Shown piece after piece: positions 7,684 through 64,000 of a stretch of 64,000 nt of DNA. Numbering within the stretch: the stretch's first letter is position 1; each line of letters starts with the position of its first letter. The stretch is from Flammeovirga sp. SJP92 (GTDB lineage Bacteria > Bacteroidota > Bacteroidia > Cytophagales > Flammeovirgaceae), in the NCBI RefSeq assembly GCF_001583495.1, contig NZ_LQAQ01000116.1, positions 1-64,000 of the forward strand, written 5' to 3'. The position numbers and the translations under genes were made by a program. A model generated the notes under the pieces. The model saw only the letters and a program-made list of their open reading frames with translations, did no database searches and was not told the DNA's origin.

Positions 7684-9081
7684 CTAAGCATTCTCAACTA
7701 CTTCCTGTACTCTTTTGTATTTCAAATCTTTTTCAATGGTTTCAATCATTTTCCCAGCGATATCTTTGCTAGACACCCCTTCTATCCCTTCCAAACCTGG
7801 AGAAGAATTGACTTCCAAAAGTAATGGTCCATTTTGACCTCTGATAATATCTACACCCGCCACTTTCAAGTTTAGAGTTTTAGCCGCTAACAACGCCACT
7901 TTTTTCTCTTCAGATGTAATCTTTACCAAGGAAGCCGTTCCTCCCATATGAATATTGGCTCTAAACTCTCCTGGTGCAGCAGTACGCATGATGCTCTCCA
8001 CCACTTTTCCATTGACTACAAAACATCTTAAGTCCTTTCCGTTCGCTTCTTTCACAAACTCCTGAACTAGGATATTGGCCTTTAAACTCTTGAAAGCATT
8101 GATCAAACTTTCAGCCGCTTTAGTGGTCTCAGCTAATACCACACCTTTACCTTGTGTACCTTCCAAAAGCTTCACAATCAAAGGTGCTCCACCTACCATC
8201 TTTATCAACTCATCAGTGTCTAATGGTGAGTTGGCGAAACCAGTAGTCGGTATAGGTAAACCGTTATTGATCAATAACTGAAGAGCATACAGCTTATCTC
8301 TTGACCTTGTAATGGAAGAGGCATTGTTAAGCGTATACACTCCCATAGCCTCAAAGTGTCTTGTCAAAGCCGTCCCATAAAAAGTAGCACTAGGTCTGAT
8401 ACGCGGAATGATGGCGTCAAAATCGTTCAGAATTCTTCCACCTCTATAATGCATTTCAGGGTTTTTCCCATCCAACTTAATATAGCAGTCTTTGATATTC
8501 AAAAATTCCATTTCATGTCCTCTCTCTTGCCCAGCCTCCATAATTCTTCTATTACTGTAGAGGTCAGGATTACTTGCTAAAAGACCAATTTTCAAACCTG
8601 TTGGCTTGACAATTTTATTATGATAATACTGCTTTAATAGATCATCAGTCGGTTCGCCCAGTAAACAAGAAGATTCTGGATCTACCAACATCTTTCCAGA
8701 CATAGCTTGACGTCCCAATAGCATCCTATACCCCATAGAATCTCTATTGGTCAAAGTCAACTGTACTTCCCATGTATCATCTGCAATGGCCAATACCGTT
8801 TTAATCACAAAACGGACTTCACTATTGCCACTTGAGCTTTTTACTCTCCTTTTATCATGAATAGGAGCTTCACAATGAACGGTTGTTTTTCCGTCATTCT
8901 GCAAAGGGTGTACTTCAAAACTCACCCAAGGAGTTCCTTCCTTTTTAAAAGGTACAATATTGACAGCATGTAGTGCAGAAGTCTTTGCTCCTGAGTCTAC
9001 TCTAGCTTTGATAGCAGGAATATTTACTTGTGGAAAGCTACACCATTCTTCGCTTCCAACTACAATTTTATTATTATTCAT
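7684..9081 (-). CDS. rimK: RimB-type aspartyl protease domain fused to RimK ATP-grasp glutamate ligase
   Basis: A 465-residue fusion. Residues 1-~150 form the RimB/COG4067 retropepsin-like domain: VDSGAKTSALHA carries the catalytic-type Asp-Ser-Gly, with a second motif GRQAMSGKMLVDP. Residues ~165-450 are a complete RimK ATP-grasp enzyme (SSITRSRDKLYALQLL, VKLLEGTQGKGVVLAE, LLEVNSSPGLEGIEG). In the known family, RimK adds glutamates to the C-terminus of ribosomal protein S6 (or makes poly-alpha-glutamate), and RimB is its processing protease; here both activities sit in one chain. The ATG at 9081 fits. It is separated from the cobalamin genes by about 170 bases. Confidence 0.93.
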   Translation of the reverse strand: MNNNKIVVGSEEWCSFPQVNIPAIKARVDSGAKTSALHAVNIVPFKKEGTPWVSFEVHPLQNDGKTTVHCEAPIHDKRRVKSSSGNSEVRFVIKTVLAIADDTWEVQLTLTNRDSMGYRMLLGRQAMSGKMLVDPESSCLLGEPTDDLLKQYYHNKIVKPTGLKIGLLASNPDLYSNRRIMEAGQERGHEMEFLNIKDCYIKLDGKNPEMHYRGGRILNDFDAIIPRIRPSATFYGTALTRHFEAMGVYTLNNASSITRSRDKLYALQLLINNGLPIPTTGFANSPLDTDELIKMVGGAPLIVKLLEGTQGKGVVLAETTKAAESLINAFKSLKANILVQEFVKEANGKDLRCFVVNGKVVESIMRTAAPGEFRANIHMGGTASLVKITSEEKKVALLAAKTLNLKVAGVDIIRGQNGPLLLEVNSSPGLEGIEGVSSKDIAGKMIETIEKDLKYKRVQEVVENA

Positions 9082-25623: not shown

Positions 25624-25811
25624 TTTCATTTTGTAATAGATCATCCTTCATAAAAATCAGTGATGCCAATAATTAGATTAAGCGAAAAGACTCTTACAGA
25701 TAAACTTAATCCTCCAAATACACTGAACACCTCCCATTTCTTCTCTGAATAGAGGATTATTTTGAATCAAAAAAAATGATTCCACGTGGAACCTTTTTCA
25801 AAAAATCAAAT

Positions 25812-26105
25812 ATTACGGTTAAGACGGTATATATATAAGAACTGAGGAACTATACTAAAACTCCATAATAATTGCGGAGTTTTAGTATATATGGAGTTTT
25901 GGTATGTTTTGAATGGATAAATAATGTCTTCGATTGGGGAGTTTTGGTATTTATAAGTAGAGTTAAGGGTCATTTTAAAATATTTCTCTGCTGAAAGCCT
26001 AAAACTTAATGATAATGAAAGGAGAAAGCTTATATATACCAAAACTCCTTAACTCAGACGTATTGTCCAAATTAAGGAGTTTTGGTATATATGGAGATTT
26101 GGTAT
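25812..26105. repeat. Satellite iteron cluster 1
   Basis: Nine motifs in about 290 bases. One is the main iteron in reverse (ATTACGGTTAAGACGGTAT, 25812-25830). The rest are of a second class built on GGAGTTTTGGTATA: at 25851-25864 (inverted), 25876-25889, 25893-25905, 25938-25950, 26037-26048 (inverted), 26076-26089 and 26093-26105, plus weaker forms. Several face each other as inverted pairs. The cluster lies 9-10 kb from the main array at 35-36.6 kb and directly beside the stop codon of the caspase-like gene. Confidence 0.75.
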
Positions 26106-26120
26106 TTAAAAACTACAGGA

Positions 26121-27632
26121 TTAATCCATCATTAATAATAAATCTGTAGCTCTTTGAAGACCTGAGTCACTCGCTTTTTCCAAATCGTTTCTATATCCTT
26201 CTAAAGGTTTGTCCAACTCGTAAGTATCCAAGTTATCATATTTCAATTTACCTAATTCGTACAAGCAGAAAGGATCATTTTCTTTTGCACCTTGCTTAAA
26301 GAAAGTATAAGCTTTGTTTTTATTTCCATTTCTCAAGGCATACTTACCTCCAAAATAAAAACTCTTCAGGCTGTGCTGTCCCATTGCTCTACGGAATAAA
26401 GTATAGATATCTTCTTCATCTGCAAAATTTCTAATGCCAAGCGCTTGGATAGTTGCCAATTGCCAAAGGTGTGTATTGACTCCTTCAGATTGCTCCTTCT
26501 GGAATGCTGTTACTACCTGCTTTGCATAGTAGTCTCTTTCAGAATCTGTCATTTCAACCTGATCGTGCTGATGTTCCATCAACAGTTTCCAGAACATGCC
26601 TTCTACATTTTCATCAATAACTGCTGCATCGTCAAAAATACCAGCTATTGTTTCCAGCTCTTTTGATTTTCGTACAAATGGCTCATCCAATTTATATTTC
26701 GAAAGGTTCATTTGGTAAGTCATATACTTGTCAATGGCTCTTTCCATCAGCGTTGAAGTAGATGTACCTTCCGATTTTGATTTAAAAATAAACTCTGTAT
26801 TTCCAACTGACTCAGAAAATGAACCTAAAATAGGGTGGGATGGAAGTGTTTTCAAATCATATTTCACTGTTTCCGCTGTAACAATGCTATCGCCCTTGTG
26901 CTCCTTTAATGAATGAATCAAAGCACCTGCAAATGGAGAATGTTCTCCTTTTTTGCCATCGGCCACTGCAGTCAATCTACCTGAACTCAATACATATCTG
27001 TTTTTCTCTTTTAACTGAAAACGTAAAAAGTCTTCTGCTGTAATACTGTATTGGTTATTGTAAGCACCTCGGCCCTTGTTGATTTTGTCGTTGAATGAAC
27101 CGCCAAAGCAAACGTCCACAACCACTAGAGCTTGCTGTGATGGCAAGTTTTCTGTCAACGATTTTAATCTATGAAAAGGAAGATAAGAAATCAAACTTGG
27201 ATCCATACCTCTTGTTTTGGTGTTCTTTAGGATCAGGAATCCCTCTTCATAGTACTTGTCTTCGTAGTCTCCATGGCCTGCTAAGTACAACAAGAAACGG
27301 TCATTCTTACGCAACTTACTGTGGTAGCCTCTTATGGCGTCTAGAAGCTCTTCTTTGCTTGGAGAAAGTAAAAGCTCCACATTAAAGTCGTAATCGTTTT
27401 TAAGCACCTCTGCCACCCCTTTGCCGTCAAAAATAGGGTTATTAAGATCCTCGAAGTTATCGTATTCATCTGTAGCTACAATCAAAGCATACGCTTCAGA
27501 ATGTACAGGTAGTTTCTTCTTTGCACTTGTACTTGCTTGAAGTCCACCTCTATACTGTCCTTGAGCAAAGCTGGTTGTAATAGAAAGCAAGCTAATAAGA
27601 CTGACTAATAAAGTCTGCTGTATTGTATTCAT
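26121..27632 (-). CDS. Exported caspase-family (C14) protease with C-terminal repeats
   Basis: A 503-residue protein with a signal peptide (ending SFAQ). Residues about 45-290 form a caspase/metacaspase p20-like domain: the catalytic His at about 120 in LLYLAGHGDYED and Cys at about 175 in VVDVCFGGSFND, preceded by ALIVATDEYDNFEDLNNP and the DGKGVAEVL helix. The C-terminal ~200 residues are helical, with Sel1-like units (AYTFFKQGAKENDPFCLYELGKLKYDN) suited to protein binding. Exported bacterial caspases with such repeats are common in Bacteroidetes; substrates are unknown. It is single and sits at the edge of iteron cluster 1. Confidence 0.88.
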   Translation of the reverse strand: MNTIQQTLLVSLISLLSITTSFAQGQYRGGLQASTSAKKKLPVHSEAYALIVATDEYDNFEDLNNPIFDGKGVAEVLKNDYDFNVELLLSPSKEELLDAIRGYHSKLRKNDRFLLYLAGHGDYEDKYYEEGFLILKNTKTRGMDPSLISYLPFHRLKSLTENLPSQQALVVVDVCFGGSFNDKINKGRGAYNNQYSITAEDFLRFQLKEKNRYVLSSGRLTAVADGKKGEHSPFAGALIHSLKEHKGDSIVTAETVKYDLKTLPSHPILGSFSESVGNTEFIFKSKSEGTSTSTLMERAIDKYMTYQMNLSKYKLDEPFVRKSKELETIAGIFDDAAVIDENVEGMFWKLLMEHQHDQVEMTDSERDYYAKQVVTAFQKEQSEGVNTHLWQLATIQALGIRNFADEEDIYTLFRRAMGQHSLKSFYFGGKYALRNGNKNKAYTFFKQGAKENDPFCLYELGKLKYDNLDTYELDKPLEGYRNDLEKASDSGLQRATDLLLMMD

Positions 27633-28550: not shown

Positions 28551-28787
28551 TTACGGAGTTTTGGTATATTTAATATTTTACGGTTAAGTCGGTATTTATA
28601 GGTTAATTGGGTATTGATCTGTTACTTCTTGTAACGGAACCCTTCAACTGAATTTAGTTTGCGATCAAATGAAGCTTAGAAGGCAGAAGTTTAATTCAAT
28701 TAATTATAAATACCGACTTAACCGTAAAAGTGTATTCCCACCTTAATTTTGGAGCATAATAATTAAACATACCAGCTTAACCGTAAT
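28551..28787. repeat. Satellite iteron cluster 2
   Basis: Motifs: TTACGGAGTTTTGGTATA (28551-28568), TTACGGTTAAGTCGGTA (28578-28594), a weak GGTTAATTGGGTAT (28601-28614), then in the opposite direction TACCGACTTAACCGTAAA (28711-28728), a weak copy at about 28732, and TACCAGCTTAACCGTAAT (28770-28787). The two halves are thus arranged as inverted groups about 100 bases apart. Confidence 0.75.
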
Positions 28788-28813
28788 TCATAAAGTAACT
28801 CTGCTTCAAAATG

Positions 28814-32035: not shown

Positions 32036-32809
32036 TCAAAAACCAATTTGTTGAGAAGGACTATGTTTCTGCAATAGAAAAAGTGCCTCTTCTTTTGTTA
32101 GATTGAAGTAATTAACTAGCATTTCCGCATTCTTAATTTCACCTTTCTTGATCAAACCAATGATCTTTTGAGTCTTTTGATCTATCACCTCATGCACAGC
32201 CTGTACTTCATATCCTCTGAATTGAACAGATGATGCCAAGAATGCTAATACAAAAAGTAAGACTGAAAATGCTCGAAAAGAATTGGCGGTTTGTTCAGCC
32301 TCAGACTTCTGAACTGCTATTTCTTCTAATAATAACTCTCGTCTTTCTTCCAATAGTTTAAGATTCTTTTGAGCCTCTAAAAAAGTTTGATACTTGGCCC
32401 AATTGGTCTTCCCTTTTACAGTATGCTTAGAATTTTCTAAAATCATCTCTTGCACTTGTCTAATTTGATCATCAATTGAAACTGTTGTCTTAATACCAAC
32501 CTGTTCTTTAGCATGAAGCAACTGACCATTCCATTCTGCATAAAAAATCATTGAGGTAAGAAGAGCTGCAAGGATTGCATATTGATTAATGGATTTGTGA
32601 ACTTGATAATAAGAGATAGTTTGTAAAGTATAATGATGGGCTAAAAAAACGATGAAAATAGAAATGGATAGTGCAAGTGGGGTGTTGTGAAAGTATTCCT
32701 TGGTAAACCAAAATGTCACATAGGAACTGTAAAGCATAGATACTACTACTAGAGAGTAATCTATCAGTTTTAACGGTTTCATTATTTTAATTATCTTTGG
32801 ATTGAACAT
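32036..32809 (-). CDS. Membrane protein with a central coiled coil, next to parAB1
   Basis: About 258 residues. Two to three membrane segments at the N-terminal side (LVVVSMLYSSYVTFWFT; ALSISIFIVFLAHHYTL; YAILAALLTSMIFYA), a long charged helical region (about 115-190) and another membrane segment (FRAFSVLLFVLAFLASSVQF). The tail IIGLIKKGEIKNAEMLVNYFNLTKEEALFLLQ looks like a small helical DNA-binding or UBA-like unit. The frame also opens from TTG 32839, but ATG 32809 (or 32782) is the better start. It lies on the same strand as parA1-parB1 and 175 bases behind them. Such four-TM proteins often occur in Bacteroidetes mobile or plasmid regions; function unknown. Confidence 0.7.
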   Translation of the reverse strand: MFNPKIIKIMKPLKLIDYSLVVVSMLYSSYVTFWFTKEYFHNTPLALSISIFIVFLAHHYTLQTISYYQVHKSINQYAILAALLTSMIFYAEWNGQLLHAKEQVGIKTTVSIDDQIRQVQEMILENSKHTVKGKTNWAKYQTFLEAQKNLKLLEERRELLLEEIAVQKSEAEQTANSFRAFSVLLFVLAFLASSVQFRGYEVQAVHEVIDQKTQKIIGLIKKGEIKNAEMLVNYFNLTKEEALFLLQKHSPSQQIGF

Positions 32810-32862
32810 TTCATAGTTGGCAGAGGTGAGATACTCCAACTACGATTTTAAAATGTTTTCTC

Positions 32863-32983: not shown

Positions 32984-33874
32984 CTATATATCTAAACCAA
33001 ATTTCTGAATCAATTCTTTGACTGATTCTTCCATGGCAAGCTTCTCCACTTTTCCTAATTCCTTATCCACTGGAGCATCGATAAGAGTACGGATCGTCTT
33101 ATTGATTTTATTAAAATTGAAAGGCTTTGGTGTATTAGCCACTGCCCTTGAGGTATTCTTTGGAGTTTCAACAGGTTTTTCCAATTTGTTCTGTAGAAAA
33201 TCTTCTAACTCTTCTGTATCAATTATCCCTTCTTTGATGGCTTTTAATGCTTCCTCAAACTTCGCTTGAGATACATTCATTTCTCCATCAAAGTAAGAAT
33301 GTTTGAATAAGTCAGAGACAAGGTCTAACACTTCTGCAATTTTAGCATCACGTAAAATGGTATTTTTTCCAACATTATATTCTTCCGCCAAAAGGTTATA
33401 AAGTTTTCCATCACCTGTTTTCTCGCCCTGCTTTCCCTTGTGTGTTAAGTAATGATGACCTCTGTAATAAGACATTTCACGCTTTGATAGGTTACGTTTT
33501 CCTACTTGGTTTTTGATCATCCAAAGCTTTGCATCATCAATATTATCAATGTCTACAATTACTTCTTCAAAATCATAACCGTTTTCTTCACCACCTAAAG
33601 ACTGACAAATTTCATATCTGTTGTGACCGTCCAACAATACTTTTTGTCCATTCTGCAAATAGAAAAATGTCAAAGGATCTCTTACTCCTTCGTTCTTTAT
33701 ACTCTCTTCAAGTGTATTTCTTTCTGTTTCTGTCAGTGGTCTGATCCACTTTTTTAATTCATCAATAACATGAATTTTACCAGAGGACATTTCTTCCTTT
33801 TTGGAGTCAATCAGCTTTGATGATTTCTGATCGCTACCCGGTAAAAAATCTCCGATATTAATTTCGTTAGGCAT
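32984..33874 (-). CDS. parB: ParB-type partition protein 1
   Basis: A 296-residue protein. Residues about 45-130 form the ParB/Sulfiredoxin N-terminal (CTPase-type) domain: RPLTETERNTLEESIKNEGV, VLLDGHNRYEICQSL (about 79-94), and KLWMIKNQVGKRNLSKREMSY. A helix-turn-helix region follows (NLLAEEYNVGKNTILRDAKIAEVLDLV). The C-terminal 70 residues are variable and likely mediate dimerisation. It overlaps parA1 by 8 bases, so the pair is translationally coupled. Two palindromes lie behind it. The pair points away from the iteron array. Confidence 0.88.
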   Translation of the reverse strand: MPNEINIGDFLPGSDQKSSKLIDSKKEEMSSGKIHVIDELKKWIRPLTETERNTLEESIKNEGVRDPLTFFYLQNGQKVLLDGHNRYEICQSLGGEENGYDFEEVIVDIDNIDDAKLWMIKNQVGKRNLSKREMSYYRGHHYLTHKGKQGEKTGDGKLYNLLAEEYNVGKNTILRDAKIAEVLDLVSDLFKHSYFDGEMNVSQAKFEEALKAIKEGIIDTEELEDFLQNKLEKPVETPKNTSRAVANTPKPFNFNKINKTIRTLIDAPVDKELGKVEKLAMEESVKELIQKFGLDI

Positions 33875-34859
33875 GTGCTATAATTTCTTGTGCTAAATAA
33901 GTGTGTTCATCCATTGCTTTCTTGATCCCTTCCTTCTCCTGTTTCTTCAGGGATTCATCTTCAAACAATGAGAAAATATCTTTACCAATCAACGGCCCTT
34001 TGTTGTAAGCCATATCTCTTACGGCAATTTCTGTTTCAAAAACTCTATAATGAGTAGACCTCAACGCCTCCTTATACTTGTGCATATCTTTGGTTCTACC
34101 CGTTTTTGTAAACAAGAAACCTAATACTTCTAGGTTTGGATTCTCTTCTTTATAATCATTAATATGGCTCAATACGTTGTTGATTCCTCTAAAAGCAAAC
34201 TCAGAAGCATCTACTGGAATCAAGGCTCTGTTAGAAGCAATCAAGCAGGAGTCATTGGTAATTAAAGCAAATGAAGGAGATAAATCGAAGAAAATGTAAT
34301 CATATTCCCCTTCAATTTTTTCAATCACATACCTTTTCACCAACTTATAAGAAGAAGGGCCGGAGTTTCTGTTGAGTGTTTTATTCGTAAAATCCAGGTT
34401 AGTTGTAGAAGGAATAATATGCAGGTTTTCCTGATATTGAATGATGGCATTGTTTACATCACATTTTCCTTCAATAATATCTGAAAGCTCTTTCCCCTCA
34501 TAAAATTGAGGATCTTTATAACCTAAATGTTGTGTCAGGTTTCCTTGAGGATCAGCATCAATCAACAATACTTTTTTACCTAATCTTGATAATGCAGCTC
34601 CAAGGTTACAAGCAGTTGTAGTTTTTGCTACCCCACCTTTGTTGTTGATTATTGAAATCACTTTAAACTTGTCTTTCAATTTTAAACCTAGGGGAGTTAA
34701 GACTTGTGTTAGCTTTTCGATATACTCTGCTTTCAAGTTTTGTTCTCCATTTAATGCTTTATGAAGAGACCTTGTAGGGATTCCAGCTTTCTTTTCGACT
34801 ACTGAAACCTTTAGCATATCATTGTCTTTGATAAAATCAAGTATGTCTTTTTGTGTCAT
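33867..34859 (-). CDS. parA: ParA-type partition ATPase 1 with N-terminal DNA-binding domain
   Basis: A 330-residue ATPase. Residues 1-~60 form a small helical DNA-binding domain (SVVEKKAGIPTRSLHKALNG), typical of type Ia ParA proteins that repress their own operon. The deviant Walker A motif is canonical, KGGVAKTT (about 74-81), followed by VLLIDADPQGNLTQHLG (A') and YIFFDLSPSFALITND (Walker B). ADP/ATP cycling on the nucleoid would move ParB-bound DNA. It is transcribed leftward from just beside the iteron array; two 17-bp direct repeats (34927-34984) upstream are the likely self-operator. Confidence 0.92.
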   Translation of the reverse strand: MTQKDILDFIKDNDMLKVSVVEKKAGIPTRSLHKALNGEQNLKAEYIEKLTQVLTPLGLKLKDKFKVISIINNKGGVAKTTTACNLGAALSRLGKKVLLIDADPQGNLTQHLGYKDPQFYEGKELSDIIEGKCDVNNAIIQYQENLHIIPSTTNLDFTNKTLNRNSGPSSYKLVKRYVIEKIEGEYDYIFFDLSPSFALITNDSCLIASNRALIPVDASEFAFRGINNVLSHINDYKEENPNLEVLGFLFTKTGRTKDMHKYKEALRSTHYRVFETEIAVRDMAYNKGPLIGKDIFSLFEDESLKKQEKEGIKKAMDEHTYLAQEIIAHA

Positions 34860-34926
34860 GATGCGATATTTTCATAATTTCTCAACAAATCAACACAAAA
34901 AAAGTGAAGTAAAAAACTAAAAAAGA

Positions 34927-34984
34927 TATTTTTTTCACTTTAAAGTAAATTATATTATCAATAAAGGTATTTTTTTCACTTTAA
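34927..34984. promoter_or_regulatory. Direct-repeat operator upstream of parA1
   Basis: Two identical 17-bp boxes TATTTTTTTCACTTTAA at 34927-34943 and 34968-34984, 41 bases apart (about four helical turns). A related inverted piece (AAAAAAAGTGAAG) lies closer to the gene at about 34897. They end 67 bases before the parA1 start, and ParA1 carries its own DNA-binding domain, so autorepression is likely. Confidence 0.55.
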
Positions 34985-35508
34985 TGAAAATAGAAGGATA
35001 ATTTTAGTACAAAATCTTCCCAATTGGAAAAAACGTGAAGCAACGGATAATCCTTACTTTTCCTACTCAAGTCATGAAAGCCATATGAATTGCGGTTCTT
35101 TCAGTATATTTAGAATACTTTTCCTAGCAAAAAATACCATTTAAACCATAATACTCCTTCTTATATACTACCTTAACCGCAATAATTGAATTATTTTCCA
35201 GTACAAACCACTTTTCAACCACAATATTGAGCTTAATATACCATCTTAACCGTAATAATATTGATAGAAATAGGATTAAACGGAGTTTTAGTATATTAAT
35301 GAAGGATTTTTCTAGTTCTTAAAACTTAATTTATCCTTTAGAATTAGCGGTTGAAAACTCATCTATACCATCTTAACCGCAGTTTTTAATAGTAAATACT
35401 ATTTCAACCGTAATAATTAAGCCTAATATACCATCTTAACCGTAATTTTTACGGAGAAAGTTGTTCCAAATTGTTTTATTTATAATAAATACTGTTTTAA
35501 CCGCTAAT

Positions 35509-35686
35509 CAGTAACATATTATTTAGCTCAATAACTTTCCATTTAATTAATTCTATAAGCTATTTTTAATATAATCTTCCAATCCAAAAGGATATAATAA
35601 GATCTATTTATTTAGTTATTTTATATACTTATTATTTATAGGGTAACGTAACTAACTGAAAAACAGAATATAATATATCATTTAGA
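35509..35686. other. AT-rich stretch, candidate DNA unwinding element
   Basis: The largest gap in the iteron array is almost pure A/T (runs such as TTTATTTAGTTATTTTATATA are interrupted only by single G or C). Such stretches beside iterons are where origins open. Confidence 0.5.
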
Positions 35687-36433
35687 TACTAAACTAACCG
35701 TAATTCGATACCAAATTAACCGTAGTATAGATATTTACTTAACCATAGGAATATACTTCCTTAACCGTATGACAAAATTGAATATCCCTATTTAACCGTA
35801 AAAAGTGGCTTTAAATACGTCTAAAACCATAATTTTTAATGCTAGAATATTCACTTAACCATAAAACATTGCGGAGTTTTCGTATAACTACTATTTATAA
35901 CGCTAAAAGTAGGATTTCAGACCTCAAATAATCTTCATTCCTGAAAAATACATAAAGCGGATTATTCTTTTATTTATATCATCTTATTCTTTATATACAT
36001 CATAAAGTATAGATAATCAGATTTTTACTGAGTTTCAAATACCAGCTTAACCGTAATAGGATATTCACTACACCGTATTATAAATACCATTTTAACCGCG
36101 CTTTATTCATACTTCAACCATAATATCCTATTATAGATACCATCTTAACCGCAATTTTGCTCTTTAAATATCATTTCAACCATAATTCAGGGTGAGAAAC
36201 CAATATTTTCCGCACTATATATACTATTTCAACCGTAAAATGACTTTTATATACTGTTTTAACCGCAATGATTTTGTTATAAATACCATCTTAACCGTAA
36301 TTTTTGATGATAATTGCGTTTTTTCCGTGATTTTAGCTTTATGGGAACTAATTTTACGTCTTATTCAGTATATATAGAATGTGCTTACTGCTTTAAGACC
36401 TGACTTCTAGAGCACTGTTTCAGCAAACGTCAA

Positions 36434-36442
36434 TGTGGATAA
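36434..36442 (-). promoter_or_regulatory. DnaA box
   Basis: TGTGGATAA on the plus strand is a perfect TTATCCACA DnaA box on the minus strand. It lies inside the iteron array, 336 bases before rep. Confidence 0.7.
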
Positions 36443-36777
36443 CTAATTGAAAATTGAATTTTAAATATATCATCTTAACCGCAATTTTGCCCTTTAAATA
36501 CTATCTTAACCGTAATTGAAAATTATAAATACTAAATACACCGTAAAAAATGTTTGTTTTTCCAAATTTTGCTATAAATTAGACTTTTAAATATACTAAG
36601 TGCACCGTAATTTTTACGGAGCATGTTTGTGGTTTACTTCTGAAATACTAGAATTACCTCTTTTTGAGAATGGGTATGCTTGAGGCGTTCCAGTTTTAGA
36701 AAGTAGGCTTATTCTGATGAAGAATAATAGCATTTTTGCTAGTGCACTTATTTTTTTAAGGTTAATAATATCTATCT

Positions 36778-38334
36778 ATGGATTTAATAAATAACATCAC
36801 TACCCGTGCTGAATTGGTAAAAAGACCCAATCAGATTATAGAAGCAAATACCCAGCTTCCTATTCCTGGTTTAGCACAAAAGTTATTTATTTATACCAAT
36901 ACCTTCCATAACGAGGATTACTCTAAGCCCATCACTTTTAAGCTTTCGAGTTTTTACGGACGTTATGTAGGAGGACAGAACTTGAAGGACGTAGATAAAG
37001 CTTGTCAGCTTCTTAAATCGTCTATGATCATGTTCTATACGCCTATCGATAAAGATTCAGGTCTACCGGTCATTATTGGCAAAGACGGCGATGTGGGCCT
37101 TCTGAACAAGGGTTACCGTAAGGAGTATGTTTCTATTTTTGATAGAATCGTACTGGACAAGACAAAGGTGACTTTTGAATATTCAGACAACTTGTTGCCT
37201 TACCTGAATGCAAAGAGTAATTACACGACTTATATCTACGGAAATATCCGCCAGATGCGTTCCAAGTATGGACCTAAGCTTTACGATTTATTATCAAGAG
37301 GAATTGGATTCTACGAGAGTAGAAAAATAACAGTGGATGACTTCAGGTCTGTATTTGGTCTGGAAAAACATAAAACATATCAGTCGTATGGCCGATTGAA
37401 GCAGTCTGTGATTACGCCTTCTATCAAGGATATCAATAAGAATGCGGATATCGAAGTATCATTGAAAGAATATAAAAAGGGAAGAACTATCAAAGTATTG
37501 GAATTTTTCTTCTCTGGAAAAGTGGATCATCAGCAAAGAGAAAATGACTTTGCTTCTTCTATGGAGCTGTTGAATACTGAATTCAGCCAGGATGCCACTT
37601 TGAAAAATACATTTGATAATTTCATTCATCTCTACAGGTTAAACAATAACTGCTACAAAGATGTAGAAGCAAAGATTATTGATCCGGTAATGAATGAAAA
37701 GATTTTAGGGAAATGGCTTAGTGAGATTATCACTGAACATGCGGGTGGATCAAGAGAGAAATTTATCATTGGCGTACAGAACAACATGCTTTCTTACATC
37801 ATGAATGGTAAAACTTCATTGAATATTGAAGCAACTCCAGCCACTGTTGAGTCATCGATCAAAGAAACGCCAGCTGAAGGAGCATTTGGTAATATTGAGA
37901 TTGTAATCAATCAGGATGAGTTAAATCAGCCAGCAAAACAAGCTCCTACTTCTTATAAATTTGAACCTGTCAATATTCCTTGTCCTGAGTATGGCACTGA
38001 CCAAGAACTATTCAAGGCACTTTCTACGAAATTGGCAAAGAAGTTAAACCACTTTGGTACGTATGATTTTTCTACCAAAAAATTCGGAGAGTGGCATCAA
38101 GTTTATTTGGATGAGTTGAATAACCAGCTTTTTGTATTTTATAAGGATATGAAATCGTTGGGAATTGGTAATTCGGTGATTCGTAAAGCTATTGAAGTGT
38201 TTGTCAATGATTTAGAGGAATATCAAGTAATGAAACCTTTGAAGAAGGAAATCAGAGACTTGAGAAATGCTGTTCAGAGAAATGAAATATTCCCTAACAA
38301 AGGCACTTTTGCAAAAATGATTAATGACTGGTAG
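36778..38334 (+). CDS. Rep_3-family replication initiator with long C-terminal extension
   Basis: A 518-residue initiator. The N-terminal ~260 residues show the paired winged helices of Rep_3/RepB/RepE initiators: PGLAQKLFIYTNTF, a first winged helix ending RQMRSKYGPKLYDLLSRG (about 158-175), then SYGRLKQSVITPSIKDINKN (about 204-223) and the iteron-binding strand GRTIKVLEFFF. Such proteins bind iterons to open the origin as monomers and shut it by pairing arrays as dimers. The C-terminal half (about 270-518) is unusually long compared with the ~300-residue family norm; it contains two helical parts joined by an acidic, proline-rich linker and is not recognised. It sits directly behind the iteron array and ahead of parA2-parB2. 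Confidence 0.9.
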   Translation: MDLINNITTRAELVKRPNQIIEANTQLPIPGLAQKLFIYTNTFHNEDYSKPITFKLSSFYGRYVGGQNLKDVDKACQLLKSSMIMFYTPIDKDSGLPVIIGKDGDVGLLNKGYRKEYVSIFDRIVLDKTKVTFEYSDNLLPYLNAKSNYTTYIYGNIRQMRSKYGPKLYDLLSRGIGFYESRKITVDDFRSVFGLEKHKTYQSYGRLKQSVITPSIKDINKNADIEVSLKEYKKGRTIKVLEFFFSGKVDHQQRENDFASSMELLNTEFSQDATLKNTFDNFIHLYRLNNNCYKDVEAKIIDPVMNEKILGKWLSEIITEHAGGSREKFIIGVQNNMLSYIMNGKTSLNIEATPATVESSIKETPAEGAFGNIEIVINQDELNQPAKQAPTSYKFEPVNIPCPEYGTDQELFKALSTKLAKKLNHFGTYDFSTKKFGEWHQVYLDELNNQLFVFYKDMKSLGIGNSVIRKAIEVFVNDLEEYQVMKPLKKEIRDLRNAVQRNEIFPNKGTFAKMINDW

Positions 38335-38463: not shown

Positions 38464-39294
38464 ATGATCGGAGAAAATATCGTCAAACTTCGAAAAAAGA
38501 ATAACATGCAACAGAAAGAATTAGCACAGCTGATTGATATTTCTGTTCAAGGCTTAATTAAATGGGAAAAGGGAAAAGTAGAAATCCCTTATTCTGGTCT
38601 ATCCAAGATCGCCGACATTTTTAAAGTACCTTTAGACTATATTGTAAAAGGACCTCCAGCAAAAGTGGTTTCTTTGATCAACTCTAAAGGTGGTAATACA
38701 AAGTCGTCTTTACTGAGACAAATTACCATGGGAATTGTGATAGAGTGCCCAGAACTAAAGGTTTTGTGTATTGATACCGATCCTCAGCAAACGTTGGCGA
38801 TGTACGCTGAAAATGGCAGGCATGAAAACATTGATGTTATCAGTTTTGATTCCAATACAATTGCCGTCTCTGAAAAATACAGAAAGCTGATTGAAGACAG
38901 TCAATACAGTTACGATTACATTTTAGTAGATACAGCAGGGTATGTAGCAGTGACAGATTTGCTGACCAGTATTATTGCTAACTCTGATGTGATTGTACCG
39001 ATTACTCTAAATGAAACAGCATTAGGACCAACAATTTCGAGTATCAGTAATATTGCTGATGTAAGAGATTCATTGGACTTGCCAACCAAAATTATTGGTA
39101 TTCGAAATAGAGTCAACAGAACGGTGAAGGAATCAAGAATGCCTTTTGAATTGGATGGCTATATGGGATTGAAATTATTGGATACTTTTATTCCTGATTC
39201 AATCCAATACCAAAGAGATACTAACTTCAGTAATACGAATATTACAAAAGAGGTGCGTTCATTAATTCATGAATTACTTCCTGTTTTAGAATAA
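38464..39294 (+). CDS. ParA-like partition ATPase 2 with N-terminal XRE domain
   Basis: A 276-residue protein. Residues 1-~60 form an XRE-type helix-turn-helix (NIVKLRKKNNMQQKELAQLIDISVQGLIKWEKG). The ATPase part begins VVSLINSKGGNTKSSLLRQI: the signature Lys of the deviant Walker A loop is present but the usual KGGxGKTT reads KGGNTKSS (about 75-82). A' is VLCIDTDPQQTLAMYA, Walker B is YILVDTAGY. It differs strongly from ParA1, so it is not a duplication of it. It has its own promoter, follows rep and precedes parB2 by 42 bases. The fused XRE domain suggests self-repression. Confidence 0.85.
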   Translation: MIGENIVKLRKKNNMQQKELAQLIDISVQGLIKWEKGKVEIPYSGLSKIADIFKVPLDYIVKGPPAKVVSLINSKGGNTKSSLLRQITMGIVIECPELKVLCIDTDPQQTLAMYAENGRHENIDVISFDSNTIAVSEKYRKLIEDSQYSYDYILVDTAGYVAVTDLLTSIIANSDVIVPITLNETALGPTISSISNIADVRDSLDLPTKIIGIRNRVNRTVKESRMPFELDGYMGLKLLDTFIPDSIQYQRDTNFSNTNITKEVRSLIHELLPVLE

Positions 39295-39336: not shown

Positions 39337-40689
39337 ATGCTGAACCTAGATAAATTTAAGAAGAAAGAAGAAGAAAAATTAAAAGAAGGTAAAACTTCTC
39401 TTAGAGAGAAAGAGTCACAAGAAAAGTTGACGAATGTAGATTATAAATCTCCAGGTGCATTTCATATTGAACCTGAATACAGAGAACTGATTCGTAAGCA
39501 AACAGAAGACGAAGCCCGTAACTTTGAAGAATCAATCAAAGCAGAAGGGGTTCGTGAGCCTATTTTATATTGGACACATACACTTAGAGATAATACAGGC
39601 GCTAGGGTAGTTCATACTGTTGTAGATGGTCACCATCGCTGTGAGGCCGCAATCAAATTAGGATTAGAATACATTCCTTGTAAAGAGTTAAAGTTCAGTA
39701 CGCACAATGACGTCCGTATTTGGATGTTGAGAAACCAATTAGGTAGACGTAATATTGGTGATGCTGAAAAGATACGTATTGCTCTTCAATTGACAGAGTT
39801 CTTAGGAATTGAGGCAAAGGAAAGAAAAAAACGTCAAGTTCAAGGATTCAACGCTACTGCTGAAAAGAAAGTAGAGACTACTCCGGTTGAAGTTTCAGAA
39901 GAGCAAAATGAGTTGGATGATCTGAAAAAATCATTGAATATTGATCCTAAAGGGAGAATCAACAGAGCAGAGGAAGCCGCTAAAATTGCGGGTGTGTCTA
40001 CTAAGAATGTAACCAAAATGAAAAAGGTTATAGAAAAGGGACCTGCTGATATGTTGAATGCCGTGATGGACGGTTACCTTTCTATCCATAAAGCTTGGAC
40101 TGAGTTAAGAGCAGTGGAACTGGAAGAAAAGAAAAAGAAAAGCAGAAAGACAAAACAAGTAGATAAGGATTTAACTCCAAAACAAGTTCAAGCTTTATTG
40201 AACGATGAAGCTTTAGTGGAGAAAGTAAGTAGAGTGGCACTCGCATTCAGATACCCTGATACATCTTTTGAAGAGCAAGATGTCAGTCCTTCACACCAAC
40301 ATTATAATGATTTTACAATTCGTTTTGTAGAAAATAATGAGGAGGTAAAGCAAAGTAAGTATGTTGATGTAATACAAGTTGTGAAGTTAAATGGTTCAGA
40401 ACTTTTGCCTCTAGTAGTAGGTTATCAGATTTTCTCTACATTTGATGACCTTCAAAATTTAAACAGCCTAATTGATTTATCTGCATCTTGTCATAAATTT
40501 TATATTGTTGTAGATGATTCATTACTAGAAGAAGCAAAACGACAAGTTGAAAAACAAGACCTAAAAGTAGGAATTATTACTACTAATCCATCTCCTCTGA
40601 TAGAAGTAGCTTTGGAAAGTCATTATATTGAATTGAATGAACATCAAGAATTACAAGTATTGAGAGAGGCTTTTTTCAGATCTTTGTAG
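39337..40689 (+). CDS. ParB-like partition protein 2 with extra C-terminal domain
   Basis: A 450-residue protein. Residues about 40-150 form the ParB/Srx domain: DEARNFEESIKAEGVREPILY, TVVDGHHRCEAAIKLG (about 95-110), and RIWMLRNQLGRRNIGDAEKIR. A helix-turn-helix region follows (RINRAEEAAKIAGVSTKNVTKMKKVIEKG), then MDGYLSIHKAWTELR. From about residue 285 an extra alpha/beta domain of ~160 residues follows (VALAFRYPDTSFEEQDV ... KFYIVVDDSLLEEAKRQVEKQDLKVGIITTNP), of unknown role, absent from ParB1. It is the partner of parA2. Confidence 0.85.
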   Translation: MLNLDKFKKKEEEKLKEGKTSLREKESQEKLTNVDYKSPGAFHIEPEYRELIRKQTEDEARNFEESIKAEGVREPILYWTHTLRDNTGARVVHTVVDGHHRCEAAIKLGLEYIPCKELKFSTHNDVRIWMLRNQLGRRNIGDAEKIRIALQLTEFLGIEAKERKKRQVQGFNATAEKKVETTPVEVSEEQNELDDLKKSLNIDPKGRINRAEEAAKIAGVSTKNVTKMKKVIEKGPADMLNAVMDGYLSIHKAWTELRAVELEEKKKKSRKTKQVDKDLTPKQVQALLNDEALVEKVSRVALAFRYPDTSFEEQDVSPSHQHYNDFTIRFVENNEEVKQSKYVDVIQVVKLNGSELLPLVVGYQIFSTFDDLQNLNSLIDLSASCHKFYIVVDDSLLEEAKRQVEKQDLKVGIITTNPSPLIEVALESHYIELNEHQELQVLREAFFRSL

Positions 40690-63181: not shown

Positions 63182-64000
63182 ATGAAAAAGTTACATCGAA
63201 ATATCATTACAATAATCGCTTTTATTTTGGCGACTCCGCTGATGCTTTCAGCGGAGGTACGCCCCAATGAAGTGGTGATTGGACTCGACGATTCTATTCA
63301 GCAACAACTGTTGAATTTAGAAAGCATTCCTTATTGGAAAGACAGCACTCGCTTGATTTCTTACGAAGAAATGCTGGTCAGGAATCCGAAATTCGATGTA
63401 ACGGATCATTATTCGAAAGCAGATTATGACAATGAGGCCAACTACTGGTTGAAGTTTAAAGTCAATATTGATCACAACAGCGCTAAGCATTGGCTTATTG
63501 AAATTTACGATCAGAAAATACAAGAGATCTTCGTTTTTCTTCCATTATTGGACGGTAGTCTGAAAAAGGAAATCATGGGTGCTTCTCATCCTTATGCAAA
63601 AAGAAGGTACGATCACAAAAACTTCGTCATTCCACTGACACATGATATCGATTTTTCAAAACCAATTTTTGTCAAGATCAATAGCAATAAGAAAGTGGAC
63701 CTTCATATGAATTTCCGAAGCATCAACCGTTTTGTGCAGTACTCTACCAAAGAATACCTATGGTTTGGCTTACAGTATGGTGCTTTTATCATTATGGCGG
63801 TGTACTCACTTTTGCTTTGGACGAGTATCCGAGATTTCAAATACATTGCTTATATCGGGCATATCGTGGTGGTGTGTCTGTATAGTATGACCAACGACGG
63901 TGTTGCGTTCCAGTTTTTATGGCCCAAAACGCCAGCTATCAATACCTTTATTAATGCCTTTCTGAGTTTTGCGGTATCTCTGACAGTGACCAATTTTATC
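63182..64000 (+). CDS. 7TMR-DISM sensor protein (C-terminus outside window)
   Basis: ATG 63182 opens a frame of exactly 273 codons to the window end. After the signal peptide (MKKLHRNIITIIAFILATPLMLSAE) come about 150 residues of the 7TMR-DISMED2 extracellular type (ANYWLKFKVNIDHNSAKHWLIEIYDQKIQEIFVFLP), then the first membrane segments (YLWFGLQYGAFIIMAVYSLLLW; YIAYIGHIVVVCLYSM) of the 7TM-DISM domain. The output domain (usually histidine kinase, GGDEF or AraC/LytTR) is beyond the window. Its place right behind the PUL suggests it could sense sugar or regulate that locus; this is inference. Confidence 0.88.
   Translation, partial: MKKLHRNIITIIAFILATPLMLSAEVRPNEVVIGLDDSIQQQLLNLESIPYWKDSTRLISYEEMLVRNPKFDVTDHYSKADYDNEANYWLKFKVNIDHNSAKHWLIEIYDQKIQEIFVFLPLLDGSLKKEIMGASHPYAKRRYDHKNFVIPLTHDIDFSKPIFVKINSNKKVDLHMNFRSINRFVQYSTKEYLWFGLQYGAFIIMAVYSLLLWTSIRDFKYIAYIGHIVVVCLYSMTNDGVAFQFLWPKTPAINTFINAFLSFAVSLTVTNFI

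Follow-up and report, generated by a model that had tools for sequence, protein, structure and literature searches.

We consider it likely that chromosome II, a chromid of Flammeovirga, is replicated bidirectionally from the rep locus described here as its active origin, an origin in which a plasmid-type cassette replaced the ancestral Rep gene and iterons and in which sites at a distance from the origin limit re-initiation. The locus lies in the first 64,000 bases (hereafter the window) of contig C116, a draft contig of 189,675 bases that is not a closed circle. A first-pass annotation of this DNA had already described an iteron origin and proposed a chromid or second chromosome; the plasmid-type nature of the origin cassette, the probable replacement of an older one and the distal sites go beyond it.

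Flammeovirga chromosome II with RepA, ParA and ParB was already published in 2021, and that paper reports a second replicon of 1.4-2.2 Mb in MY04, NBRC 100898, YS10 and L12M1, confines dnaA to chromosome I, states for the genus that chromosome II carries core genes, and does not contain the word ‘iteron’ (PMC8653839). A search of the open-licence literature found no paper linking Flammeovirga with iterons. Nine Flammeovirga genomes (G000-G008) were compared, including the source genome G000 (draft; 8,491,641 bases or 8.49 Mb; 123 contigs). Together with EKP202 (G007), F. aprica JL-4 (G002) and OC4 (G006), in which Rep is 94-95% identical (all three loci found among named genome contigs), the source genome forms the window clade (n=4). 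The five other species are represented by G001, G003, G004, G005 and G008, among which G003 fits F. kamogawensis YS10, G005 fits F. pectinis L12M1 and G008 fits F. yaeyamensis NBRC 100898. The origin region of the window comprises the following features:

32036-32839, minus strand: X, hypothetical protein encoded at the outer end of the cassette (homology to plasmid-type cassettes)
32984-33874, minus strand: ParB1, ParB-like partner (translation motifs; annotation of the p1 homologue)
33867-34859, minus strand: ParA1, partition ATPase of the plasmid-type cassette (Pfam AAA_31)
34901-34982: two 41-bp direct repeats before parA1, candidate ParA1/ParB1 operator or centromere
35087-36613: sparse array of 26 iterons, consensus TATACYATYTTAACCGTAAT, 25 on the plus strand and one (35087) on the minus strand (iterated matrix, more than 14 bits)
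35282-35296, plus strand: exact variant site inside the array, with a second (two mismatches) at 35873
35605-35660 (approximate): AT-rich block, candidate unwinding element (four-genome origin alignment)
36435-36443, minus strand: DnaA box TTATCCACA
36778-38334, plus strand: rep, Rep_3-family initiator, 518 aa (Pfam Rep3_N 46.8 bits, Rep3_C 59.2 bits)
38464-39294, plus strand: ParA2, HTH_3-ParA fusion, probable ancestral partition gene of chromosome II (profile match; neighbours in relatives)
39337-40689, plus strand: ParB2, ParB-like partner (ParB_N 14.6 bits, below the cut-off of 26.3)

Both domain matches of Rep exceeded their cut-offs (22.4 bits for Rep3_N, WH1, and 21.1 bits for Rep3_C, WH2), in agreement with the Rep_3-type initiator gene that had been called before, and rep was the sole Rep3_N match in the source genome (E 0.001). 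The protein consists of two winged-helix domains (about residues 14-245) and a C-terminal extension, for which alignments gave no clear counterpart in the chromosome II Reps of the five other species; a phmmer comparison with PDB sequences returned nothing at E 0.01. The last 135 residues had no plasmid match, and the one clear relative found for the C-terminus, 58% identical, was located on an F. aprica contig (G002:C424:14166-15485), there joined to a plasmid-type N-terminus (32%). Judging from this Rep, replicons seem to exchange domains of their initiators. The locus resembles the Rep_3 iteron plasmids (RepE/F, pi/R6K, RepM) in its two winged-helix Rep domains and in the iterons beside rep, but differs from them in having 26 sparse iterons over 1.5 kb, a long C-terminal extension and a replicon of chromosome size. 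Plasmid iteron arrays are usually short and tandem.

The 26 sites of the array compare with a mean of 0.2 in 20 Markov-simulated 64-kb sequences, that is, the repeats beside the initiator gene are beyond chance. As the matrix was trained on the array itself, independent support has to come from the relatives and from the distal sites. The earlier count of about 28 repeats was a fair estimate, given the 26 sites above 14 bits and one weaker copy (8.2 bits) at 35814. An 18-mer iteron pattern with at most one mismatch matched 13 times in the source genome, each time on the rep contig, compared with two matches of the reversed control; no iteron-like site was found at one mismatch outside the rep contig of this genome, a search that a Vibrio-type trigger on chromosome I (crtS) of another sequence would escape. 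Single iteron-like sites occurred on other contigs of G004, G006, G007 and G008 (one each), which is the level of the reversed control (0-5 per genome). These single sites resemble each other pairwise (G006:C196:9875 and G007:C100:22156; G004:C1:3904699 and G008:C1:4784027). Across the four clade genomes, and counting 27 iterons including the weak copy at 35814, 449 of 540 iteron positions were invariant versus 509 of 987 positions in the array spacers, and the five-base core AACCR was invariant at 128 of 135 positions. Start-to-start steps between iterons ranged from 22 to 197 bp, with gaps near multiples of 10.5 bp: for plus-strand sites above 14 bits and start-to-start gaps below 140 bp (21 of 24), helical phasing reached R=0.83, which was unmatched in 20,000 random draws.

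The AT-rich gap of the first-pass annotation corresponds to the block at about 35605-35660, which is conserved in the four clade genomes. The ‘perfect’ DnaA box described there is indeed present as TTATCCACA, but is weaker evidence than had been implied, as it changes in relatives: at the aligned place OC4 has the same letters (two of the four clade genomes in all), EKP202 has TTATTCACA and F. aprica TTACTCACA, so that TTATNCACA is found in three of four, and the 2-kb regions preceding rep in F. aprica and the five other species contain no TTATNCACA. The box was demoted as a defining part of the origin because of this decay. The stretch from the last iteron to rep (36614-36777) is longer by about 120 bases than in the three clade relatives. 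In the mechanism that we infer for this region, Rep monomers would occupy one face of the helix by binding to the 26 phased iterons, and bound Rep would melt the AT-rich block, perhaps with the help of DnaA, and load the helicase. Rep would also repress itself through the iterons adjoining its own promoter.

The first-pass annotation had named GC skew and a second, dnaA-bearing replicon as points to be checked. Within the first 100 kb of the contig, the cumulative GC-skew minimum fell at 36947, inside rep. When 20 kb on each side of rep were scanned in all nine genomes (in G002 only 9.7 kb downstream), eight of nine had the minimum in the interval from 1,406 bp before to 169 bp after the rep start; the exception is G005, where it lay 5,262 bp (5.3 kb) downstream. 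Whole replicons were sampled in 20-kb stretches (42 of about 112 for G008:C2 and 22 of about 81 for G003:C2), and in both the sampled minimum was at rep, with the maximum about 0.9-1.0 Mb away in G008:C2 (2.24 Mb) and about 0.78 Mb away in G003:C2 (1.61 Mb), the profiles being noisy with some local reversals. A dnaA above cut-off was located on a contig different from that of rep in all nine genomes, including the source genome. Three complete relatives carry a related Rep on a replicon of 1.4-2.2 Mb, and on this replicon no dnaA match exceeded the cut-off. Thus, plasmid-type replication and partition genes occur without dnaA, for the source genome as judged on its 190-kb contig, and chromosome-like size and skew organisation were found in the complete relatives G008 and G003, the draft contig of the source showing the same skew switch. 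The turn of the skew at rep in eight of nine genomes and the minimum at rep on the relatives’ replicons indicate that the locus is the origin of chromosome II, and together with dnaA on another contig and the relatives’ 1.4-2.2 Mb replicons they support the proposal of a chromid or second chromosome. The chromosome-like surroundings noted before were also recovered (signal peptidase, CobS, a DBI_PRT phosphoribosyltransferase, glycosidases, a sulfatase and SusC/SusD-type genes). The gene at 7684-9081 encodes a fusion of a RimK-type ATP-grasp ligase with a putative zinc-protease domain.

With the source contig being a draft and not a closed circle, the locus might instead be an integrated plasmid remnant within the main chromosome, the true origin lying elsewhere. 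This is highly improbable, as the skew turns at rep, no other Rep3_N gene was found in the source genome and the neighbours of the chromosome II origin flank rep. In addition, 19 of the 121 ORFs of contig C116 found their best match, at 60% identity or more, among the G008 stretches sampled, and 17 of these 19 fell in C2, compared with about 13 predicted from sampling alone; since six of the 17 fall in two stretches picked around the C2 origin, this lends moderate support.

Two clusters of sites 8-12 kb from rep, at 25779-26107 and 28552-28790, had not been listed by the first-pass annotation:

25779-25792: parS-like palindrome ATTCCACGTGGAAC of the chromosomal type with one mismatch, its start 31 bp from that of a distal iteron
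25810-25831, minus strand: distal iteron 1, intergenic (matrix, 28.6 bits)
25850-26107: seven variant sites GGAGTTTTRGTATAT with 0-2 mismatches, iteron relatives with a 7-bp spacer
28552-28569, plus strand: one variant site, an exact copy with a TAC prefix (pattern search)
28575-28790: three distal iterons, intergenic, at 28575 (minus), 28709 (plus) and 28768 (plus) (matrix)

The four distal iterons scored 22.7-28.6 bits and all lie in gaps between genes, those at 28575 and 28709 within a perfect 25-bp inverted repeat. Each of the three clade relatives likewise has four, whose order and strands are the same; relative to the rep start they lie at -11.4 to -11.6 and -8.3 to -8.7 kb. Beyond these, near-noise sites occurred at 8792 and 12754 in the window (14.0-14.7 bits), and another of 14.1 bits on the contig outside the window. 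Outside the array, the five other species have 1-6 iteron-like sites (above 11 bits) per 40 kb, versus 0.1-0.3 expected, and their places vary.

The variant sites consist of the iteron half-sites with a spacer of 7 instead of 8 bp. Each of the five exact copies in the source genome belongs to a distal locus or to the array, compared with one match of the reversed control, and the three clade relatives have four, three and three exact copies, all on the rep contig. No exact copy was found in four of the five other species; the fifth has two on G003:C2, far from rep. These two (G003:C2:52563-52577 and 63958-63972; exact GGAGTTTTAGTATAT copies) lie about 0.6 Mb from rep round the circle. With up to two mismatches there were 13 variant sites on contig C116, namely seven at the first distal locus, one at the second, two in the array, one inside the SDH gene (a site also present in the three clade relatives) and two elsewhere. 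Within 40 kb of G006, 11 variant sites were found, whereas 30 permuted patterns gave 0.67 on average and seven at most. Half-site pairs on the contig fell within the three loci in 21 of 23 cases at a spacer of 8 and in three of three at a spacer of 7, versus none of three at spacers of 5, 6, 9 and 10.

The parS-like palindrome beside distal iteron 1 has counterparts in the other genomes: a site of the GTTYCACGTGRAAC pattern lies within 12 kb of rep in all nine, with one mismatch in each; the near-rep sites occupy three lineage-specific positions. In several genomes the reversed control matched at least as often (10 vs 5 in G000; 0-13 over the nine), so that the case for the parS-like sites is one of location alone, the chance of one random site falling within 12 kb of rep being about 0.003. 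A perfect parS-like site lies 33-46 kb on the other side of rep in G000, G006 and G007, and on another contig in G002. In the source genome this side carries a perfect GTTTCACGTGAAAC palindrome between genes (C116:82937-82950), which is also present in the three clade relatives (in F. aprica on another contig). The only ParB above the TIGR00180 cut-off is encoded on a contig other than that of rep in all nine genomes.

In the proposed mechanism, the four distal iterons and the variant sites with 7-bp spacer would titrate or handcuff Rep, which would limit re-initiation. By analogy with Vibrio, the distal sites, conserved like the variant sites in all four clade genomes, may serve in titration; together the two site types recall the control sites of Vibrio RctB. 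Alternatively, the distal sites could be Rep-regulated promoters (of the caspase-like and SDH genes) or decayed fragments of an origin, an alternative that concerns the control step only and is possible, if the less likely of the two. The intergenic position of the sites beside these two genes fits such a role. The number, order and strands of the distal iterons, the same in all four clade genomes, speak against this alternative, as does the reported inhibition of chromosome II replication by the Vibrio counterpart sites (PMC3937223). The gene adjoining the first distal cluster encodes a caspase-domain protein (26121-27632) that occupies the same place in the three clade relatives (84-92%).

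The origin of Vibrio cholerae chromosome 2 (RctB) is likewise an iteron chromid origin with two kinds of initiator site. It differs in its 12-mer iterons with methylation-dependent binding, in an initiation-enhancing RctB site on chromosome I, and in extra sites 40 kb away versus 8-12 kb here.

Around the chromosome II origin the five other species have ParB2-ParA2 (minus strand), then iterons and Rep (plus strand), followed in three of them by YtfJ-type and SDH-type genes; ParA2/ParB2 adjoin the chromosome II rep in all five. The window clade has SDH and YtfJ on one side and ParA2/ParB2 on the other, and between them X-ParB1-ParA1 (minus strand), iterons and Rep (plus strand). In its neighbourhood the locus is thus like the published Flammeovirga chromosome II (PMC8653839), whereas Rep and iterons of the window clade are of another type and are accompanied by a plasmid-type ParAB. 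Two ParA/ParB-like pairs hence flank the window origin. The first-pass annotation had placed ParA/ParB genes on both sides, which holds clearly for ParA, while the ParB partners are no more than ParB-like. For ParB1, Pfam gave no match to ParB even at E values as high as 5; its homologue on p1 is annotated as ‘ParB N-terminal domain-containing protein’. We take ParB1 and ParB2 to be ParB-like from motifs in their translations, from their place behind parA and, for ParB1, from the plasmid annotation of the homologue.

The unit X-ParB1-ParA1-iterons-Rep spans 6.3 kb and is collinear with Flammeovirga plasmids, the gene order being the same in all four plasmid-type loci examined. The divergent parA-parB and rep around a long gap recall p1 (NZ_CP076130.1) of F. 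kamogawensis, in which the gap is filled with repeats and X is present, and the MY04 plasmid (NZ_CP003562.2), in which the Rep-ParA-ParB order is that of the window cassette; both differ in being plasmids and in their Rep (34% and 31%), and p1 in its repeats of about TAATACTAGTAGTTAGACC. ParA1 is 90% identical to its counterpart on p1 and 83% to that of the MY04 plasmid. Over p1, F. pectinis C1 and G001:C6, identities were 87-90% for ParA1, 72-75% for ParB1, 55-58% for X in the same place and 31-34% for Rep, and in the fourth cassette (G002:C424) 39% for ParA1, 32% for ParB1, 40% (191 of 257 aa) for X and 30% for Rep plus 59% for a C-terminal Rep piece. Of the 41-bp repeats before parA1, the first core TATTTTTTTCACT is conserved in all four clade genomes and the second in three; plasmid cassettes have related, diverged A-rich repeats before parA, as judged by eye. 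The exact core of 34901-34982 was found nowhere else on the contig, its 11- and 12-base forms once more. The iterons of the plasmid-type loci, also about TAATACTAGTAGTTAGACC, differ from the window’s TATACYATYTTAACCGTAAT, and the five other species have 16-20 sites of TATGTATAGATATACCGTA over 11 bits in 1.5 kb.

Over residues 1-255, Rep of the clade was 38-42% identical to that of the five other species, versus 90-99% among those five. This gap is not mirrored by DnaA (74-80% between the clade and the five), chromosome I ParB (79-87%), ParA2 (84-89%, compared with the gene beside the chromosome II origin) or ParB2 (62-66%). In a tree of ParB and MnmG rooted on other genera, G003 and G005 lay outside and the window clade beside G001/G004/G008, its nesting supported at 93/95 (not starred); a single clade of the other five was rejected at the borderline (p-AU 0.037). 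Taken together, cassette order, Rep gap, iteron difference and the rooted tree make replacement on the window branch the simplest account: judging from these comparisons, a plasmid-type cassette probably replaced the older chromosome II origin in the window clade. In the clade’s ancestor, the X-ParB1-ParA1-iterons-Rep cassette would have entered between the neighbours of the old origin and displaced the ancestral Rep gene and iterons, while the ParA2/ParB2 pair remained. Against this account, Rep is just 31-34% identical between the window cassette and its three closest plasmid counterparts even though ParA1 reaches 87-90%. Searches for a donor with a window-type Rep were negative in the plasmid collection (best 34%), among named genome contigs (three loci, all of the clade) and in the family’s 18 genomes (best outside the clade 41% over the N-terminus).

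It could also be argued that Rep and iterons diverged fast in place, the window array descending directly from that of the other species. As a full-length Rep tree mixes unrelated C-termini, it was set aside and an N-terminal tree used instead (21 of 23 Reps, those of two 46- and 61-kb plasmids being left out), and this tree did not reject a single clade of all chromosome II Reps (p-AU 0.146), as divergence in place would have it, nor a clade of window-type and four plasmid-type Reps (p-AU 0.101). ACCGTA is common to both iteron types, and both arrays are sparse and of similar length. Nevertheless, we consider divergence in place distinctly unlikely, since Rep is more conserved than DnaA among the five other species (90-99% vs 77-96%), the C-terminal half of the window Rep has no clear relation to their Reps, X-ParB1-ParA1 stand in plasmid order, and the relative orientation of rep and ParA2 has changed.

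A further explanation starts from an ancestral chromosome II that was a fused replicon with two cassettes, of which the lineages lost different ones. Diverged ParA1/ParB1/X (44-45, 36 and 36%) occur near the chromosome II rep in G003 and G005, and a ParA1-like match (35%) in G001, all of which would fit; the former also mean that cassette ancestry may be more tangled than a simple replacement. The genome fitting F. pectinis carries a plasmid-type cassette inside chromosome I, and fusion therefore seems to occur in the genus. This cassette, with Rep, ParA1, ParB1 and X like those of p1, lies at about 4,301,956-4,307,306 of G005:C1, apparently in an integrated megaplasmid. On the other hand, ParA1 of G003 chromosome II (45%) is further from the window ParA1 than that of plasmid p1 (90%), and none of the nine genomes has both Rep types on the contig of the chromosome II rep, which makes loss from a fused ancestor unlikely, although somewhat less so than divergence in place.

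If replacement is correct, it represents a natural swap, in which the initiator and partition genes of a second chromosome are exchangeable while the replicon persists. No published replacement or exchange of a chromid origin was found among titles and opening abstract lines of the open-licence literature. A 2018 review places iteron chromids in beta- and gammaproteobacteria (PMC6090056); the window adds a case from the Bacteroidota, for which nine genomes were compared in their origin anatomy. With two origin versions in sister clades, the needs of a chromid origin (copy control, timing, segregation) become testable, and the conserved distal sites offer concrete targets for studying initiator titration outside Vibrio. 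A wider and rather doubtful proposal is that chromosome II came under the control of a new initiator whose DNA specificity is also new, and that the new origin has a control network of its own, made up of loci with two types of site, one of these loci lying beside a chromosomal-type parS, which would let chromosome I ParB act on the control of chromosome II.

Three parS-type palindromes (at most one mismatch) stand directly upstream of mnmG in all nine genomes, mnmG being identified by Pfam in G000 and G008 and by homology in the others. In G008:C1 (112154-112391 and 4133679-4135697) about 1.2 Mb of the circle separates this trio and mnmG from dnaA, and a sparse skew sample fits an origin of G008 chromosome I nearer to mnmG than to dnaA.
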